Shown here in pieces: positions 3,600 to 29,491 of a DNA stretch of 38,607 nt (positions within the stretch are counted from its first letter, which is position 1; the number at the start of each line of letters is the position of its first letter). The DNA is from a virus. Under the pieces are notes generated by a model. It was not told where the DNA came from and did no database searches. It saw only the letters and a program-made list of their open reading frames with translations. The position numbers and the translations under genes were made by a program. The stretch spans positions 1 to 38,607 of IMG/VR virus record IMGVR_UViG_3300017744_000040, one strand, 5' to 3'.

Positions 3600-3628
3600 T
3601 TGACTTATTCTATATCTGCCCATATAAT
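3600..3628 (+). promoter_or_regulatory. Sigma70 promoter TTGACT-N17-TATAAT
   Basis: TTGACT (3600-3605) and a perfect TATAAT (3623-3628), with a 17-nt spacer. The predicted start near 3635 leads straight into the structured RNA before clpP. Confidence 0.7.
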
Positions 3629-3634
3629 TACAAG

Positions 3635-3786
3635 CACTGAGGTGGTGGAATAATACACAATGCGGTTTCGACCGCATGTCGCGAGAGTGGCTTACAAGCG
3701 TTGGTCTTCGGATCATAATCTTGTCCTCAGCACCTGAAGTGGCTGTAGACCCACCCGGATTCCTCTACAGGGGGTCCGGGTTAAAA
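3635..3786 (+). ncRNA. Structured leader RNA with H-type pseudoknot upstream of clpP
   Basis: About 150 nt without a convincing plus-strand gene. CTGAGG (3637-3642) pairs with CCTCAG (3725-3730), enclosing two UUCG-tetraloop hairpins: ATGCGGT/ACCGCAT (3660-3677, 7 bp) and TGGTC/GATCA (3691-3704 region). Next comes a CAGCAC/GTGGCTG stem (3728-3745 region). Then TGTAGA pairs with TCTACA, while ACCCGGA from its loop pairs with TCCGGGT just downstream, giving an H-type pseudoknot at about 3744-3781. The same bases can also make one 10-bp hairpin, so two states are possible. It starts at a good promoter and ends before the clpP promoter, so it could be a free sRNA or a cis-regulatory leader. It matches no RNA family I know. 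Confidence 0.55.
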
Positions 3787-3790
3787 ACAG

Positions 3791-3819
3791 TTGACACAAT
3801 TTGATATTAAAAGTATAAT
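3791..3819 (+). promoter_or_regulatory. Perfect sigma70 promoter TTGACA-N17-TATAAT, leaderless clpP
   Basis: TTGACA (3791-3796), 17-nt spacer, TATAAT (3814-3819): full consensus. The clpP ATG at 3827 lies 7 nt after the -10, at the expected +1. Confidence 0.8.
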
Positions 3820-3826
3820 AAGTGAT

Positions 3827-4426
3827 ATGCCATTAACACCAGTTGTAATAGAACAGTCAAGCAAAGGCGAAAGAAGTTATGACATTTTTAGTAGACTTCT
3901 CAAAGACAGAATCATTGTGATGGATTCAACAGTTGAAGATCACATGGCGTCAGTGTTGTGTGCTCAATTGTTGTTTGCAGAATCACAAGATCCCAAAAAA
4001 GAAATTACAATGTACATCAACAGCAGAGGTGGACTTGTTACAGCAGGCATGGCCATATATGACACCATGCAGTACATCAAGTGTGACATCAGAACCATTG
4101 TGATGGGACAAGCATGTTCAATGGCAAGTCTGTTAGCATCAGCAGGCACTCCAGGCAAACGAATGATGTTGCCACATGCTAGACACATGATACACCAACC
4201 ATTAGGAGGTGCATCAGGCCAAGCCACAGATGTACAAATACAGGCCAATGAACTGTTGCGTTGGAAAAAAGAACTTACAGAAATTTATGTTAAAACCACA
4301 GGCAAGCCTTTTGAACAACTGACAGAAGACATGGAAAGAGACAAGTTCATGACGTCACAGGAATCAGTAGCATATGGACTAGCAGACGAAGTGATAACCA
4401 ACAGAGATAAAGATGGCAAAGAATAA
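3827..4426 (+). CDS. clpP: ClpP serine protease
   Basis: 199 residues, the normal ClpP length. The subunit forms a barrel-shaped peptidase that degrades unfolded proteins fed by a Clp/Hsp100 ATPase. The triad is present: Ser98 in GQACSMA, His123 in MIHQPLGG and Asp172 in MERDKFM. The N-terminal region ([23 protein letters not shown]) matches bacterial ClpP from its first residues. The frame could start at a TTG at 3791, but that TTG is the -35 box of a perfect promoter and the ATG at 3827 gives the canonical N-terminus. No ATPase partner is in the window, so it probably uses host ClpX/ClpA or processes phage proteins. It overlaps the bL33-like gene by 14 bp. Confidence 0.95.
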
Positions 4427-4628
4427 AACCAAAACTAAAAAGCCCTACCTCAAAGTAATGATGGTTCCTGAAGATTCAAAAATGAAGAACCATGGTTATT
4501 TCTACTATGCAAAGAAACCCACTAAAGGCGAAAAGAAAAACGACAAACTAAAACAAAGGAAATACGATCCTATTACACAAAAACACATTTGGTGGGTAGA
4601 GAAAAAATTACCACCACATTCAAAATAA
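4413..4628 (+). CDS. rpmG: bL33-like ribosomal protein
   Basis: 71 residues, very basic. After about 27 extra N-terminal residues comes a bL33-like core: GYFYYAKK, Lys-rich loop, then [18 protein letters not shown]. This lines up with the GYFYTTTKN...KKYDPVVRKHVxYKExKL pattern of bacterial L33. L33 sits in the large subunit near the E site. The usual length is 50-55, so the N-terminal extension is unusual. It may be incorporated into host ribosomes during infection; other ribosomal proteins are known from marine phages. The start overlaps clpP, suggesting co-translation. Confidence is limited by shortness and divergence. Confidence 0.7.
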
Positions 4629-10168: not shown

Positions 10169-10242
10169 GCTCCCATAGTTAAATGGTATAACATCTCCAT
10201 GGTAAGGAGGCGTTCTAAGTTCGATTCTTGGTGGGAGCACCA
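10169..10242 (+). tRNA. tRNA-Thr (anticodon GGT)
   Basis: Complete cloverleaf: acceptor GCTCCCA/TGGGAGC, D-stem GTTA/TAAC, anticodon stem TCTCC/GGAGG (one T-G pair) with loop ATGGTAA giving anticodon GGT, T-arm CTAAG-TTCGATT-CTTGG. Discriminator A and an encoded CCA (10240-10242). It reads ACC and ACT codons. First of two tRNAs behind a sigma70 promoter and probably cotranscribed with the downstream genes. Confidence 0.95.
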
Positions 10243-10319: not shown

Positions 10320-10394
10320 GGTCCCATCGTCTATCGGTTAGGACACGTGGTTTTCATCCTCGAAAGAGGGGTTCGATTCCCCTTGGGACCGCCA
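10320..10394 (+). tRNA. tRNA-Glu (anticodon TTC) with a T-T mismatch in the anticodon stem
   Basis: Acceptor GGTCCCA/TGGGACC, D-arm GTCT...AGGAC, T-arm AGGGG-TTCGATT-CCCCT, discriminator G and encoded CCA (10392-10394). Loop TTTTCAT gives anticodon TTC. The anticodon stem CGTGG/CCTCG has a central T-T mismatch; CCACG would restore it. The rest looks functional. The 77-nt spacer from tRNA-Thr contains GGTGAATTT twice in tandem. Confidence 0.93.
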
Positions 10395-15830: not shown

Positions 15831-16907
15831 CTAACCAAGATATCTTTTGTTGGTCAACCAACCATGCACTTTGTACTGTTCTACAAACTTTGGATGTTGG
15901 TTCAAATATCCAATTACGTGTGCTAGATTGTAGTAGGAATCTGTCTGCTTCCAGTTAGGAAAATGATTTGCAAAATAACTGTTACCCCATGTGCTGTTGT
16001 AGTGTTGGCTAAAATATTTGTCCTCGACTGTTTCACCAAAACAATTTTTTGTATAAAAAAATTTATCCATACTTTGTCTTCCAAAACTGCTATTGAGATT
16101 CCAAAACGTATCTGTGTTTTGACTTTTGTATATTTTGTTTGTGTCAGTCATGTTGTTTTTGCTCAACCATTGTTTTGCCAAGTGACACTGTTTGATTTGT
16201 AAAGTAGGATTCTCGCCTTGCCAAAACATTTCTAATACAGGCTGTCCCCAATTCTCATCGTCGTAATCAACGTGTTGCATGTAGAATCCTTTTTGGTCCT
16301 TGTACACATAAGGTTTATTTGATCCTGTGATGATACAACCATTTTGTAGCACTTTGCGATACACATCTGGATATCTAGTTTTTAAATTTAGTTCGTGTCC
16401 GATGTGGTGGAAACGCAGTTGCCAATTTGTGTTAATGATGTTGTGTTCAAAGTTATAGATACTGTTGCCTTCGTTGTGATCTAGTTTTTCTGCAAACAAC
16501 AGTTCTGCCCCAAGCAGTTTGTCTTTGTTTGCTTGTAGATGTTGCATGGCTAATTGCACATCTTTGTTATAATGTGCATCTTTGTCTTTGGTGTACCAAA
16601 CACAGATGTAATCTATTTTAATTTTATTGTCAATGAATCTTTGCAAAACAGTGTTGCTGTCTACACCACCACTGTAACATAAAACCAATGTGTCATATTT
16701 TTTACGTAGATGTTCACAGTGTTTACTTTCAAGATCGATTATGCTGTCCTTTGGTTCATGGCTCCAGTCTGTCGCTTCCCAACTGTCATCTCTCAAATAC
16801 GCTTTGTAAGGATACTGCGGATTGTGTATGGCATATCGGATTGCTAACCATTTGTTGCTGAAAAACTTATCGCCAACTTGCCAACCTGTTCGTTTATCGT
16901 AGTTCAT
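15831..16907 (-). CDS. PP-loop ATPase (asparagine synthetase-like / N-type ATP pyrophosphatase)
   Basis: 358 residues. The pyrophosphate loop LCYSGGVDSNTVL (SGGVDS at residues 79-84) is the hallmark of enzymes that adenylate a carboxyl or carbonyl before amide or thio transfer (AsnB, tRNA thiolases, QueC). No glutaminase domain precedes it. The C-terminal 200 residues are aromatic-rich and not recognised. The gene overlaps tctA by 14 bp. Adjacent to radical SAM genes, it could catalyse amide formation in a modified metabolite. tRNA modification is an alternative. Confidence 0.8.
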   Translation of the reverse strand: MNYDKRTGWQVGDKFFSNKWLAIRYAIHNPQYPYKAYLRDDSWEATDWSHEPKDSIIDLESKHCEHLRKKYDTLVLCYSGGVDSNTVLQRFIDNKIKIDYICVWYTKDKDAHYNKDVQLAMQHLQANKDKLLGAELLFAEKLDHNEGNSIYNFEHNIINTNWQLRFHHIGHELNLKTRYPDVYRKVLQNGCIITGSNKPYVYKDQKGFYMQHVDYDDENWGQPVLEMFWQGENPTLQIKQCHLAKQWLSKNNMTDTNKIYKSQNTDTFWNLNSSFGRQSMDKFFYTKNCFGETVEDKYFSQHYNSTWGNSYFANHFPNWKQTDSYYNLAHVIGYLNQHPKFVEQYKVHGWLTNKRYLG

Positions 16908-18207
16908 ATATTTGTAAAAAAGTGTAAAAGTTTTCTAACCATATGTGTCCTATTACCATCCAAAAAATAAAAGGAAGAAAGTTTACCTTTGGAAATTTAT
17001 ATGCAATCGTTGTTGCAACCAAGTACACAATCAAATTAAAGACGCCATAGCCAGTCTGCTGTTCTCCTACTGCAAAAACCACAACAGCAAGTATCAGAAA
17101 GATTGTTATTTTTAAAATAGAATTATTTTTAGGAATGATCTTAACAAAATGTTTTGCAAATTTAATTGCTAAGGTCAACATAATCAAGTTTACAAAAAGT
17201 AACAACCACCAATTGTTTGCCAGTAGTTCTAAAGGTTGTGTGCTAGAGCCTTCCCAACCTTTTATGTCCAGCAGTTGAAATAGAATTGCTTCACTGCCCG
17301 TAATGGGTATGCCAAACATCAACAAAGGAAACAGTTGTGTAATACTACCACTGTTGTTGGCAGTCTCACTGCTTGTAAGACAAAATGTATTTCCTTTCTT
17401 GTATGTGCTTTGTTGAATTTTTTTCTCTGCAATATAGGCCAAATGACTTGCACTAATTGTGGTCAGTCCTGGCAACATTCCTCCTACACTGCCAATTAAG
17501 GATCCTCTCACAACAGCATATTTGTGTTTAATCAGTTCTTTGATTTTATCAAATTGTTCTACAATAACAATCTTTTGTTTTGTTGTATCTTTTACTGTCA
17601 TGACTTCCTTCATACATAAAAGTCCAGCGGCCAATGAAAAGTAACTGATACCCTGACTTAAAAACAAAAAGTTAAAATTGTACAAAGGAACATTTGAATT
17701 GATACTGACTCCTATGTGGCATAAAGCAAGAGCCAACACAATCAGACCAAGGTCCAACCATAGTTTATTTTTTGTCGTTAATATCAAACTGAGACCAACT
17801 GCCATGAACAAAAGCATTCTTTCTAGACTTGTCAGTGTCAATTGCATACTTGATGTGGCCAACACTGTAATGAAAAGTAATCCAAACATTGTGCCTACAA
17901 AACTGCCTACGCCTGTGAGAAATATGGAACGTTGTCCACTTCCTTGTTTTGAAAGACTGTATCCTTCTACCACTGCAGGAAAACTGCTGGCCTCACCTGC
18001 TATGCCAAGATATATTGCTGTGATACTTCCAAAGTATTGAGCACTGCATACCATACAGGTATAGAACATCAAAAGTTCTACAGGTTGTAGTCCCAACAAG
18101 ATAGGATACAACATGGCAATGGCAACCAACATACCCACTCCAGGAATCAAACCACAAAGTATGCCAACAGCACCACCAAATAATGCAATTTGTATTAGAT
18201 CAAACAT
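16894..18207 (-). CDS. tctA: Tripartite tricarboxylate transporter, TctA-like large membrane subunit
   Basis: 437 residues with about ten hydrophobic helices. The N-terminal signature is GILCGLIPGVGMLVAIAM, followed by QYFGSITAIYLGIAGEASSF and GYSLSKQGSG, matching TctA (G-x-LPGIG, YGGS-TAI-LNIPGEASS). A second repeat carries GGMLPGLTT and FGIPITGSEA. TctA is normally about 500 residues, so this form is shortened. It would conduct di/tricarboxylate uptake with a periplasmic binding protein. tctC lies just upstream (TAATG overlap), but the small TctB subunit is absent. A phage-borne transporter of this class is unusual. Confidence 0.9.
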   Translation of the reverse strand: MFDLIQIALFGGAVGILCGLIPGVGMLVAIAMLYPILLGLQPVELLMFYTCMVCSAQYFGSITAIYLGIAGEASSFPAVVEGYSLSKQGSGQRSIFLTGVGSFVGTMFGLLFITVLATSSMQLTLTSLERMLLFMAVGLSLILTTKNKLWLDLGLIVLALALCHIGVSINSNVPLYNFNFLFLSQGISYFSLAAGLLCMKEVMTVKDTTKQKIVIVEQFDKIKELIKHKYAVVRGSLIGSVGGMLPGLTTISASHLAYIAEKKIQQSTYKKGNTFCLTSSETANNSGSITQLFPLLMFGIPITGSEAILFQLLDIKGWEGSSTQPLELLANNWWLLLFVNLIMLTLAIKFAKHFVKIIPKNNSILKITIFLILAVVVFAVGEQQTGYGVFNLIVYLVATTIAYKFPKVNFLPFIFWMVIGHIWLENFYTFLQIYELR

Positions 18208-19112
18208 TAGCCGTTAGGCTCTGAACTGTACTGGCCCCAACTTAAAGTTTTTTCCATATCAACCTGTGTCTGTTGGTCAAAAAACAGAATCAATTTTTTG
18301 TTGTTGGCATAAGTTCCAAATTCGCCTGTGTTGTTTTTGAAATCTTGTTCTAGGCTCTGCGAAATAATTTTTGCTATGTTGTCTTTGTCATTGAACACAT
18401 ACCACGTGCCAAGAAATGCTCTTGTTAATTTTTTGTTGTCAAAATGTTGTGCAAGTATTGGGGCGTCAACATCAAGTTCGGGTAGTGTTCGTAACAGAAT
18501 TTTGTATTGGTCTTTTTGTTTTGTCAATCGCAAATAGTGACTGTACGTGGTCCATACAGCATCAACTTCTCCAGATGCTATGCCGGCTCTCATCTTTGAA
18601 CTGCCATTGTAACCAACAAACACGTGATTGTTTCCAAATGCCTTGTTCAATTGATTGTGCCAGCCTTTCTCCACATCACTGCTACCGCTGTAACCTATCT
18701 TTAATTTGGTGTTGCTGAACTTGTCAAGTTCAGTGCCTTGACCGTTTGTGTTCACGACCAAATACAAGCCTTGTACTTTTGACACAATGGGTTTTGCATT
18801 TTCAAAACTTACATAAGGACATGCAGGGTCATTTTTCATTTTGGACACCAACTGATAATAATTTTCATAGTGTGTCACAAAGGTGTTGCCGTTTTGTTGT
18901 TTGACCAAAGCAAAACCTTTACAGGCGTTGCCTGGAGCAATTGCATTCAATTTTATTCCGTTGAACTTGCCTGACTGACTGTCTTTGGCAATCAACTGTG
19001 CTATGGCGTTTGTGGATCCTTTTGTTGATCCTGTAACAATTATGTTGATCTGTTCTGCAAACACTGTGTTTGACATCAAGAACAATACAACTGCTGTTAA
19101 AATGTTTTTCAT
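18207..19112 (-). CDS. tctC: TctC-like periplasmic solute-binding protein
   Basis: 301 residues, close to the family norm (about 320). A cleavable signal peptide MKNILTAVVLFLMSNTVFA precedes the mature two-lobe protein. Family-like segments are INIIVTGSTKGSTNAIAQLI, GYSGSSDVEKGWHNQL and AGIASGEVDAVWTTYSHY, although the consensus is weaker than for TctA. An AGGAG Shine-Dalgarno lies about 6-7 nt before the ATG. It is followed directly by tctA, so the pair is coupled. The ligand is presumed an organic anion; it cannot be read from sequence. Confidence 0.82.
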   Translation of the reverse strand: MKNILTAVVLFLMSNTVFAEQINIIVTGSTKGSTNAIAQLIAKDSQSGKFNGIKLNAIAPGNACKGFALVKQQNGNTFVTHYENYYQLVSKMKNDPACPYVSFENAKPIVSKVQGLYLVVNTNGQGTELDKFSNTKLKIGYSGSSDVEKGWHNQLNKAFGNNHVFVGYNGSSKMRAGIASGEVDAVWTTYSHYLRLTKQKDQYKILLRTLPELDVDAPILAQHFDNKKLTRAFLGTWYVFNDKDNIAKIISQSLEQDFKNNTGEFGTYANNKKLILFFDQQTQVDMEKTLSWGQYSSEPNG

Positions 19113-22586: not shown

Positions 22587-24272
22587 CTAACGGAATTTTT
22601 CAAGTGTGAATCCTTTAGAATCATAGCACTGTACAAATTCTGAATTGTTTGAATACCGCACTGTGCCTTGACCCCACACAACATCATGATCATGATACGA
22701 AAACGGTCTTGGTATTGTAACATCGATGTATTGTCCATTGCCAACTCCTAGGGTCAAGAAAGTTACGTATTTGCCTTTGTCTCCTCTAAACACTCTGCCG
22801 TTAGCAATCATGCCTGCAAATTCAATCTTGTCCATGTATAATTCTTTCACATACATACCAGGCATAAAATCTTTGTTTGACCACCAACCGTACTTTCTGT
22901 ATTGAAATTGTGGAGTGTCCCATTGATCAGAATTAGATGGGGTCACAACATTTATGCCCACACGTTTGGCCTCTGTTCTGTATACCCAACGTCTATATGA
23001 TCCATGACAGTGTTTCAAACAGGCTTGCCAAAATTTTTCTGGGTTGTGTGCTTTCTGATAGGCCAATGCCCAAATTAATCTGCCCAAGTTTACTGCATGA
23101 GCTCTGCACAAACCAAACCCCGACAAACTCTGTAACATTTCTATAATTGCATTTTTCTTAGGATGTTTGCCTAATCTAGTTGTAAATTCAAATATTTTTT
23201 CTTCGTTCTTTTTGGCAAATGCTCTACGATACATATCTGCTTCATACTTGTCTATCTTCAAAACTTCTGCTATTCTGTCGATAGCATCGTCTTCGTATAC
23301 TATTGTGTCTTCCATTTTTTCTTGGCTCCAGTCATGAAACATGGTTGCTTTTTTTCTACCTGACACTGCTACTGGTCTTACTAGTGCAGTCGCAAACACA
23401 CAGTCTTTCATTGACTTGGGTTGTATTGCTCTAAACAATCTTCTCATAGCCGGAGACTCTGCTTGAGTAACTCCTAACACATCACCTCTGCACAGTAAAT
23501 CAGATGTGGCTTTGTCTTCCACAGGATAGTCTGTTAATCTTGTACAAGGATCAACTTCTAATAACTGACTAAGTCCTCTGTTAGCCAGTATGTCAACTTT
23601 TAGGTGTTCTAAATCTTCAACTTCATTTTTGTCCAGCAGGATTTGATTTTCCGCTGTGAATAAACTTTTTGGTAATTGTCTTCCAAACATTATTATGCCT
23701 CCGCAGTGTTTTGATATACATCTTTTTTTGCCCATCAATTTGCGTTCAATCCGTTTTGCTTCTACGGGATCAACACCAACTGATTCGTATGTGAATCTGC
23801 GAGGGAGTCTACCTTTTGCACCCAAACGTTTAGCCGCTTCACGCTTAGCCGACTTATCCTTATAAAGCACGTAGTTTGATATACGAGCCGAGCGTCCGGG
23901 CCACTGTTTGAATATTCTATTCATGACTTCTCCCTGACGATAATGGGGGAAATCAATATCAACATCAGGTAAGTCATCTCTGGTAGGATTTAAGAATCGT
24001 GCAATGGGTATGCCCCACTTCACAGGATCCACATCTGTTATGCCAAGTAGGTAACAGACCAAAGACGAACCAGCCGAACCACGAGTCATATGGGTGATAT
24101 CTCTCGTAATTGCTAGTATGTCACATATTTGGATGAAGTAGTCTACGAAACGTAGTTGAAGGATGATGCGAGTTTCATCAGCAAGCCTTTGCGTGTATTC
24201 TTCTGTGCCTGGACATTGCCTAATAAATCTATCGTATAGCCTTGTTATGTCGTTTAGTTCTTTGTCTTTCAT
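22587..24272 (-). CDS. dnaE: C-family (DnaE-type) DNA polymerase lacking the PHP domain
   Basis: 561 residues, half of normal DnaE (about 1,100). It begins in the palm: YFIQICDIL, RGSAGSSLVCYLLGITDVDP (residues 64-83), ERF-like ARFLNP, then LPDVDIDFPHYR with catalytic Asp103 and Asp105. The third catalytic Asp is in LKVDILANRGL (Asp227). The thumb/fingers follow, including GFGLCRAHAVNLG in place of the common NKSHAVAYA. A C-terminal OB-like segment is FAGMIANGRVFRGDKGKYVTF. The N-terminal PHP exonuclease-like domain is absent. It lies downstream of helicase and primase genes, so it is probably the replicative polymerase. No B-family gp43 appears in the window. Its leader has three AGGCAAA repeats. 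Confidence 0.93.
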   Translation of the reverse strand: MKDKELNDITRLYDRFIRQCPGTEEYTQRLADETRIILQLRFVDYFIQICDILAITRDITHMTRGSAGSSLVCYLLGITDVDPVKWGIPIARFLNPTRDDLPDVDIDFPHYRQGEVMNRIFKQWPGRSARISNYVLYKDKSAKREAAKRLGAKGRLPRRFTYESVGVDPVEAKRIERKLMGKKRCISKHCGGIIMFGRQLPKSLFTAENQILLDKNEVEDLEHLKVDILANRGLSQLLEVDPCTRLTDYPVEDKATSDLLCRGDVLGVTQAESPAMRRLFRAIQPKSMKDCVFATALVRPVAVSGRKKATMFHDWSQEKMEDTIVYEDDAIDRIAEVLKIDKYEADMYRRAFAKKNEEKIFEFTTRLGKHPKKNAIIEMLQSLSGFGLCRAHAVNLGRLIWALAYQKAHNPEKFWQACLKHCHGSYRRWVYRTEAKRVGINVVTPSNSDQWDTPQFQYRKYGWWSNKDFMPGMYVKELYMDKIEFAGMIANGRVFRGDKGKYVTFLTLGVGNGQYIDVTIPRPFSYHDHDVVWGQGTVRYSNNSEFVQCYDSKGFTLEKFR

Positions 24273-28655: not shown

Positions 28656-28929
28656 TATAACGCAAAAAAAAAGCACGATATCCACCGTGCCATTTTATTT
28701 CAACATTTTTCTTTTCCCAAATGGTTTGCCATTCGGGTAAACATTCGCGAACCCATGATTTTATTTCAAATGTTTTGGTCACAGTCAACTTGGAAGGTCT
28801 TTTTGTTTTTTTTACTAGATCAAGTTGTCTGGCTAATTCAACGCCATAGTTCCAATCATCAGGTAGTTCTACTGTTGGGAGTTTGTATTTTTTAGTGAGA
28901 TGTTTTTTCCGGTTGTACACTAAAAGCAT
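28648..28929 (-). CDS. Hypothetical protein (93 aa)
   Basis: 93 residues, basic, with helical N-terminus (RKKHLTKKYKLP) and a Trp-rich C-terminal region (SWVRECLPEWQTIWEKKN). No family recognised. It overlaps the mini-DnaE gene by 38 bp, the last gene of a ten-gene overlapping operon. Proteins encoded here may assist the mini-DnaE or act on DNA, but this is guesswork. Confidence 0.6.
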   Translation of the reverse strand: MLLVYNRKKHLTKKYKLPTVELPDDWNYGVELARQLDLVKKTKRPSKLTVTKTFEIKSWVRECLPEWQTIWEKKNVEIKWHGGYRAFFLRYIK

Positions 28930-29491
28930 ATTTACCTTTTGTAATTAAATTCATCTGAACTACAATAGCCTGTGCATATGCAACTGCATGTGATTTTTTA
29001 AAGAAGTAACTGCCATCTGTTGGTTTAACCCAAACTTCTTGCATTATGTCATTCCAATTTTTATGCATTAGGCTTCTTTTGGCTGGCCTTATTATAGCCA
29101 ACACAGCCGCAAGTTGTTCTATATTTTTTGGTTGCAGTTTTGAGACTATACTGAAATGTCCGTTAAGATGAAACAGTTCATCTACAAAACATTGTTCATT
29201 AAGCATTTTCCAGTCTGGTTCTTGAATCATAAGTTCAACTAGTTCTTGCTCATTTTTTACATCTTTGTAGATGCTTACATTCAAACAGTCAATTTTAAAA
29301 TATCCTCTTTCTTCTGCTTTTTTGTAATCTATACTAGAATACCCTGTGACAGGTTCTTTGGGTATGTTGTGAAAGTATACACCTGTTTTGTGTTTTTCTA
29401 TCTTATCCTCTTTAATGATAGATGCAGGAGTATGTTTAAACAATTTTAATACTTCGTCTCGATCAATAAAATCTATATCTACATCAGGCAT
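28892..29491 (-). CDS. Miniature DnaE-like protein (second C-family polymerase relic)
   Basis: 199 residues. It starts directly with MPDVDIDFIDRDEV, the two-Asp palm motif of C-family polymerases (Asp3, Asp5). HKTGVYFHNIPKEPVTGY matches the region before the third Asp, then GYFKIDCLNV carries it (Asp68). Later KPKNIEQLAAVLAIIRPA-like and FFKKSHAVAYAQAI follow DnaE fingers. So the active-site order is kept while most of the fingers and OB parts are deleted. Either a tiny polymerase-like or regulatory protein, or a decaying copy. It is distinct from 22587-24272 and starts in a TAATG overlap with the upstream gene. Confidence 0.75.
   Translation of the reverse strand: MPDVDIDFIDRDEVLKLFKHTPASIIKEDKIEKHKTGVYFHNIPKEPVTGYSSIDYKKAEERGYFKIDCLNVSIYKDVKNEQELVELMIQEPDWKMLNEQCFVDELFHLNGHFSIVSKLQPKNIEQLAAVLAIIRPAKRSLMHKNWNDIMQEVWVKPTDGSYFFKKSHAVAYAQAIVVQMNLITKGKYAFSVQPEKTSH

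Follow-up and report, generated by a model that had tools for sequence, protein, structure and literature searches.

What is the RNA that appears to be encoded just ahead of clpP in this virus? The window (the whole stretch analysed, a 38.6-kb virus record; all coordinates are positions in it) had been described in a sequence-only reading as carrying, at this locus, an H-type pseudoknot, two UUCG hairpins and another stem, together with a pair of consensus promoters, and we found all of these at the positions claimed (Table 1).

A structured RNA and its promoter ahead of clpP

Promoter-like sites exceed the chance level (four observed, 1.4 expected in shuffles), and the RNA region folds with an energy of -63.5 kcal/mol versus -45.5 ± 3.8 in 200 shuffles, none of which did as well (z = -4.7). 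As had been proposed, clpP behind the second, perfect promoter is leaderless or nearly so: its ATG (3827-3829) begins 7 nt past TATAAT. An ORF within the RNA was considered and rejected: five of the six reading frames across it are interrupted by stops, the sole open plus-strand frame meets a TGA four codons past its ATG in L001 (the other member of the window's lineage, see below), substitutions track pairing, and no reading frame is conserved. A minus-strand ORF that overlaps the RNA (3716-3339) has, in L001, a shorter start that lies outside it.

Rfam and ARAGORN left the RNA region of the window unreported, even at permissive Rfam thresholds (chance matches only); the two ordinary tRNAs that they found, Thr at 10169 and Glu at 10320, both lie elsewhere. 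The proposal of a structured RNA that has its own promoter and escapes both programs is thereby upheld, and the compensatory changes that it led one to seek among homologues are present in the stems and the pseudoknot. Given the strong GC hairpin ahead of clpP, one might suppose an ordinary intrinsic terminator or a chance intergenic fold. However, a scan of the plus strand detected no intrinsic terminator after the RNA (an A-rich tail, and no U run, stands behind the GC hairpin), the z value is far from chance, and the covariance-model homologues, the pairing kept across lineages and the covariation of the 3' domain refute this explanation as a full account; we give it next to no credence.

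Table 1. Features of the RNA locus and adjoining genes, in window coordinates
Feature	Position	Strand	Basis or remark
Promoter of RNA, TTGACT-N17-TATAAT	3600..3628	+	11/12 consensus match; -35/-10 with 17-nt spacer in 8/8 homologous records
tRNA-Leu-like domain	3636..3735	+	Topology; covariance-model homology to L031, L021, L174, L028 and tRNA-Leu genes
Acceptor stem 5' strand, ACTGAGG	3636..3642	+	Pairs with 3725-3731; first pair A:C non-standard
D arm, GTG-GAATAATA-CAC	3645..3658	+	Phage tRNA-Leu counterpart GTGGAATGGTAGACAC
Anticodon-arm position, AUGCGGU UUCG ACCGCAU	3660..3677	+	7-bp stem capped by UUCG; no anticodon
Variable-arm position, GUCGC GAGA GUGGC	3678..3691	+	5-bp stem, GAGA loop
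T-arm position	3694..3724	+	5-bp stem ACAAG/CTTGT abuts acceptor strand; UUCG hairpin 3703-3714 replaces T loop
Acceptor 3' strand CCTCAGC, discriminator A3732, then CCT	3725..3735	+	A73 in 5/5 lineages
P1 5' strand, CTGTAGA	3743..3749	+	Pairs with 3764-3770 (pseudoknot); covariation
P2 5' strand, ACCCGGA	3753..3759	+	Pairs with 3775-3781 (UCCGGGU); covariation
P3 5' strand, TTCC	3760..3763	+	Pairs with 3771-3774 (GGGG); competes with P1; covariation
3' strands of P1 (3764-3770), P3 (3771-3774) and P2 (3775-3781)	3764..3781	+	Covariation
Promoter of clpP, TTGACA-N17-TATAAT	3791..3819	+	12/12 consensus match
clpP (leaderless), Pfam CLP_protease	3827..4426	+	Pfam 2.8e-79
bL33-like ribosomal protein gene	4413..4628	+	PF00471; overlaps clpP end; adjoins clpP also in L001 and L031

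The 5' domain as a derivative of tRNA-Leu

The sequence-only reading also held that the RNA matches no tRNA pattern, and this did not survive comparison. Its first ~100 nt have class-II tRNA topology, with the elements in tRNA order from 5' to 3' (acceptor strand, UG at positions 8 and 9, D stem, one base, anticodon-, variable- and T-arm positions, acceptor 3' strand), and one homologue, L028, scores 35.2 bits against Rfam tRNA (gathering threshold 29), which the window copy does not reach. The complementary strands CTGAGG (3637-3642) and CCTCAG (3725-3730) had been correctly noticed but misread as closing the UUCG hairpins: they form an acceptor stem that encloses a capped anticodon arm and a modified T arm. 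A rival closing helix, CACUGAGGUG/CACCUGAAGUG, belongs to the minimum-free-energy fold of the window; it was dropped in favour of the acceptor stem CUGAGG/CCUCAG, as L174, L021, L031 and L028 do not conserve it.

With phage-encoded tRNA-Leu (RF00005) the RNA shares the acceptor stem, U8G9, a 3-bp D stem (GYGGAA...CRC; the D arm reads GTGGAATAATACAC in the window), the variable-arm position, a T stem that abuts the acceptor strand, and A73. Unlike tRNA-Leu, it has no anticodon loop: the hallmark of a decoding tRNA, a 7-nt anticodon loop on a 5-bp stem, is missing from 3660-3677. The window copy also lacks the T loop and G18G19, and thus the elbow between D-loop G18G19 and T-loop UUC, and has CCT where tRNA has CCA, which is encoded only in L028 and L031. 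Further departures from tRNA-Leu are a transcript that apparently starts at nucleotide 1 and an extra 3' pseudoknot domain. Sequence comparison shows descent of the 5' domain from tRNA-Leu, and because the anticodon has been lost, an RNA of this sequence cannot decode.

Homologues in five lineages

The family comprises eight records in five lineages: the window and L001; L174 and L175, identical over the stretch read; L021 and L020; L031; and L028. A covariance model built from the window and L001 only (R1) detects L031 (28.5 bits, E 1e-6), L021 and L020, and also two further contigs, L174 and L175 (43.4 bits). A second model (R2), built from six sequences with L028 not among them, detects the unseen L028 (31.2 bits). 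The other strong matches of R2 (E below 1e-4 in 100 contigs) are five tRNA-Leu genes (anticodon UAA in three, CAA and UAG in one each) and one tRNA-His; these contigs hold many other tRNAs, yet the strong matches from outside the family are mostly tRNA-Leu, which places the RNA closer to tRNA-Leu than to other tRNAs.

Upstream of clpP, the regions of L028 and L031 are more plainly tRNA than that of the window. L028 has GCGGTTT/AAACCGT, the T arm ACAGGTTCAAATCCTGT, ACCA and a 5-nt loop on the anticodon arm; L031 has the T arm AAGGGTTCAACCCCCTT, ACCA and an enlarged anticodon arm, the loop of this arm being enlarged in the homologues other than L028. The T loop is canonical in L028 and L031 (UUCAAAU and UUCAACC, respectively), UGCAAGA in L021 and L174, and gone in the window pair. 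The D loops of L028 (about 2819-2841) and L031 (about 2776-2801) each hold a 3-bp hairpin insertion; its loop, GGGAGACT, is the same in both, and its stem shows compensatory changes (GTG/CAT against CTA/TAG). In L031, at about 2806-2866, the enlarged anticodon arm is readable as a 20-codon ORF (ATGGGTTGCTGGCACGAA...ACGTAA) that is unseen in the other lineages and likely due to chance.

Pairing is kept throughout the family. L001 is 83% identical to the window over 244 bases with no pair broken, and the changes between the two in the tRNA-like part are three compensatory and five one-sided. Among 184 pairs assigned by hand across the five lineages, 183 form; when partners are swapped between lineages, only 51-54% form for the acceptor and T stems, and 58-63% for P1, P2 and P3 of the 3' domain. 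Pairing in the anticodon arm, assigned sequence by sequence, is looser (36% swapped) and the D stem barely varies (90% swapped), so neither weighs much. All eight records carry TTGNNN-17-TATAAT, followed by 6-7 nt and then by nucleotide 1 of the acceptor stem. This is the usual start spacing of a sigma-70 polymerase, and the transcript should therefore begin at or beside that nucleotide. Between the window and L001, identity is 89% in the RNA and 97.8% in its 3' domain, compared with 81% in clpP, 89% in the bL33 gene, 65% in the clpP spacer and 64% in the promoter stretch.

Could these copies be the stages of a decaying, functionless tRNA-Leu gene? The stepwise loss of anticodon, elbow and CCA fits such a history, as does a patchy distribution: no family member was detected in some ninety further related contigs, although many of these are fragments. 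But compensatory changes in the helices already disfavour decay, a conserved 3' domain absent from ordinary tRNAs has been added, the consensus promoter is constant, and the RNA changes more slowly than clpP; we regard decay as very improbable.

Beyond these eight records, a search for DNA relatives among 50,697 phage records returned just one 24-base promoter-like match. L083 and L084, retrieved with the DNA pattern TGGCGGAANTNGGGAGACT, were rejected as chance matches inside coding sequence. Two IMG/VR matches to a 3'-domain pattern (L275, L276) do not match the covariance model and were taken as chance; the sole match in the prokaryote genome collection (L278), likewise without a model match, looks like a plain hairpin in a tmRNA gene, on the opposite strand. 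Rfam, at gathering and permissive thresholds, gave nothing beyond chance matches in L031, L021 and L174 and none in L029. The last of these contigs has, upstream of clpP (about 1000-1240), tRNA-Leu-like pieces (TTGGTGGCGGAAC...TAACGCAC, an arm CTAAA-TTCT-TTTAG, and GGTTCGAG) in a region that R2 also does not detect; it is possibly a sixth, heavily expanded lineage.

A pseudoknot and a competing hairpin in the 3' domain

Behind the tRNA-like part, the order of strands is that of an H-type pseudoknot: P1 5' strand, a 3-nt loop (CCC or ACC; AA in L028), P2 5' strand, a 3-5 nt loop, P1 3' strand, a further 3-5 nt loop and P2 3' strand. The P1 strands read CUGUAGA/UCUACAG in both the window and L174, CUGAAGA/UCUUCAG in L021, CCAA(A)GA/UCUUGG in L031 and UAUUGG/CCAAUA in L028, and the interleaved helices P1 and P2 both covary over the lineages. 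Another feature of this domain is that its two short loops are mutually complementary in every lineage: UUCC/GGGG in the window, AUCU/AGGU in L174, GUUG/CAAU in L021, GUCG/UGAC in L031 and GUG/CAC in L028. This loop pairing (P3) would lengthen P2 into a hairpin of 8-12 bp across the lineages. In our judgement P1 and P3 are mutually exclusive, because no loop would remain to cross P1.

In an alignment of five sequences from four lineages, 7 of the 18 pairs of the 3' domain are changed on both sides. The covariation score is 0.43 versus 0.19 in shuffles, with none of 500 shuffles reaching it and the signal abolished by sliding 1-3 columns; this is a strong signal, albeit from few and related sequences and not a formal R-scape result. 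Within the 46-nt 3' domain the window and L001 differ solely by G3774A, which replaces a U-G pair of P3 with U-A. Furthermore, a descriptor scan of both strands of the window found no other pseudoknot whose second stem is GC-rich and whose loops are complementary, and the same scan of 2.68 Mb of related contigs gave 117 loose pseudoknot matches, among which only this RNA family combines both properties.

Two-state switching had been suggested from the window alone, and it is strengthened by these comparisons: since covariation keeps both P1 of the pseudoknot and P3, the hairpin extension that competes with it, the RNA probably switches between two states. The alternative hairpin, described earlier as 10 bp, in fact has 11-12 bp. 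P3 is worth about 7-8.5 kcal/mol to the hairpin and P1 4-7.6 before any pseudoknot penalty, so that at equilibrium the hairpin should prevail; ongoing transcription, or the binding of something, may allow the pseudoknot to form.

Downstream genes and the possibility of a cis-acting leader

In 8/8 records clpP is found downstream of the RNA, on the same strand and at a distance of 0 to ~4 kb. The gene directly 3' of it is clpP in the window, L001, L031 and L028; in L021 and L174 this gene encodes proteins that are dissimilar and of unknown family. One gene without a Pfam family separates RNA and clpP in L021 and L020, with about 10 nt from the 3' domain to its start codon, and in the L174 and L175 contigs about 3.9 kb with other genes intervenes. 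The RNA thus keeps its place upstream of clpP, whereas the gene immediately next to it varies, and the idea of a dedicated clpP leader is not borne out, given the intervening genes in these two lineages. The bL33-like gene behind clpP has company, ribosomal proteins encoded by phages being already known (PMC6375957).

Two other parts of the window drew our attention. Tripartite tricarboxylate transporter genes are unusual phage cargo, and at 16894-19112 TctA (Pfam 4.5e-67) stands beside a protein that resembles a TctC-type binding protein. At 22587-24272 there is a DNA polymerase III alpha-like protein that has only 561 aa; about 5 kb away, a second protein, of 199 aa (28892-29491), falls in a phage DNA polymerase family (phrog_11778), and the two are possibly a split polymerase.

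A more general cis leader is a serious contender, if one that we would not call probable: as a tRNA-like 5' UTR fold, the RNA would raise or gate translation of whichever gene comes next, with the P1/P3 switch as its expression platform. It has precedents in the yjdF riboswitch, a tRNA-like leader that controls translation, and in tRNAs that raised translation 2- to 6.3-fold when put in front of an ORF (PMC9142559). The yjdF riboswitch resembles our RNA in having a tRNA-like fold upstream of an ORF plus an alternative pairing; it differs in being tRNA-Lys-like, with a switch that pairs the T loop with the Shine-Dalgarno sequence, whereas the RNA here is tRNA-Leu-like, phage-borne and switches between a 3' pseudoknot and a hairpin. 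The yjdF Rfam family gave no match to the window RNA at E up to 10. A leader would also agree with an RNA that is always upstream of the next gene, on the same strand and with no terminator between, and with the start codon of L021, too close to the 3' domain for an intervening promoter. On the other hand, in the four genomes in which clpP is directly next it is leaderless, with a promoter of its own immediately behind the RNA; both the identity of the downstream gene and how far away it lies vary among lineages, and we saw no Shine-Dalgarno sequence that the element could mask.

A possible role in trans

The reading that we prefer, though tentatively, is that the RNA acts in trans as a tRNA mimic, a free phage noncoding RNA of about 150 nt that arose from a tRNA-Leu gene. 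Sequence alone could not decide between this and a cis leader, its main rival. The promoter geometry suggests that host RNA polymerase would start the RNA at nucleotide 1 of the acceptor stem, in which case no 5' trimming by RNase P would be needed. The acceptor stem, discriminator A73, 3-bp D stem and stack of acceptor and T stems have been retained and the anticodon given up, while the 3' domain, folded as pseudoknot (P1 and P2) or long hairpin (P2 and P3), would set the 3' end, stability or activity of the RNA. We infer that such a mimic would engage a tRNA-binding host factor, which might be leucyl-tRNA synthetase, a tRNA-cutting or other tRNA-directed defence enzyme, EF-Tu or the ribosome.

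The constancy of the promoter geometry in all eight records argues for action in trans, as does the higher conservation of the RNA, and above all of its 3' domain, relative to clpP; the directly downstream gene varies, which favours an independent RNA. Against it, with no plus-strand terminator behind the RNA, co-transcription with the next gene is possible; many tRNA-binding proteins might no longer recognise a window copy that is devoid of T loop, G18G19 and CCA; and the family has just five known lineages. A more elaborate version, which we consider rather unlikely, is a phage riboregulator in which a tRNA-binding factor would toggle the anticodon-less tRNA-Leu derivative between pseudoknot and hairpin, either to block a host enzyme (a synthetase or a tRNA-directed defence) or to time clpP-bL33 expression.

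A charged but non-decoding Leu-tRNA analogue, serving as amino-acid donor (for example in N-terminal leucylation that feeds ClpAP), seems to us improbable. It would draw on A73 in all lineages, the CCA encoded in L028 and L031, clpP as a neighbour, and the fact that the anticodon is dispensable for E. coli LeuRS. But the window copy has neither the D/T-loop elbow nor an encoded CCA, and no leucyl/phenylalanyl-transferase gene was found in the eight records, for which reason the N-degron idea was rejected, although the host could supply one.

Comparison with known RNAs

Bacterial Y RNAs such as YrlA are tRNA-mimicking noncoding RNAs, and the window RNA resembles them in being noncoding with a tRNA-like module; the difference is that we saw no Ro60/Rsr-binding stem in it, and the Rfam family of YrlA and Y RNAs gave no match to it at E up to 10. 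With tmRNA it shares a tRNA-like domain plus a pseudoknot, and clpP encodes the peptidase of the pathway that tmRNA feeds. The difference is that tmRNA has a tag reading frame; the RNA here has none, its tRNA topology is uninterrupted with the pseudoknot downstream of it, and the window RNA was negative for tmRNA in ARAGORN and Rfam. We located no report of this RNA in the open-licence literature, and no described family matched it. It is a new RNA family, but its general kind is not new, RNAs derived from or mimicking tRNA being already known.

Numerous tRNA genes are carried by phages, and the usual explanations are codon supply or resistance to tRNA-cutting defences. Here a tRNA scaffold has been kept, its decoding part dropped and a conserved two-state tail gained, which suggests that a phage tRNA can be converted to another use: probably this former tRNA-Leu has been re-used as a regulator or decoy, and not as a tRNA. 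It follows, too, that tRNA finders miss some structured regions of phage genomes that are former tRNAs.
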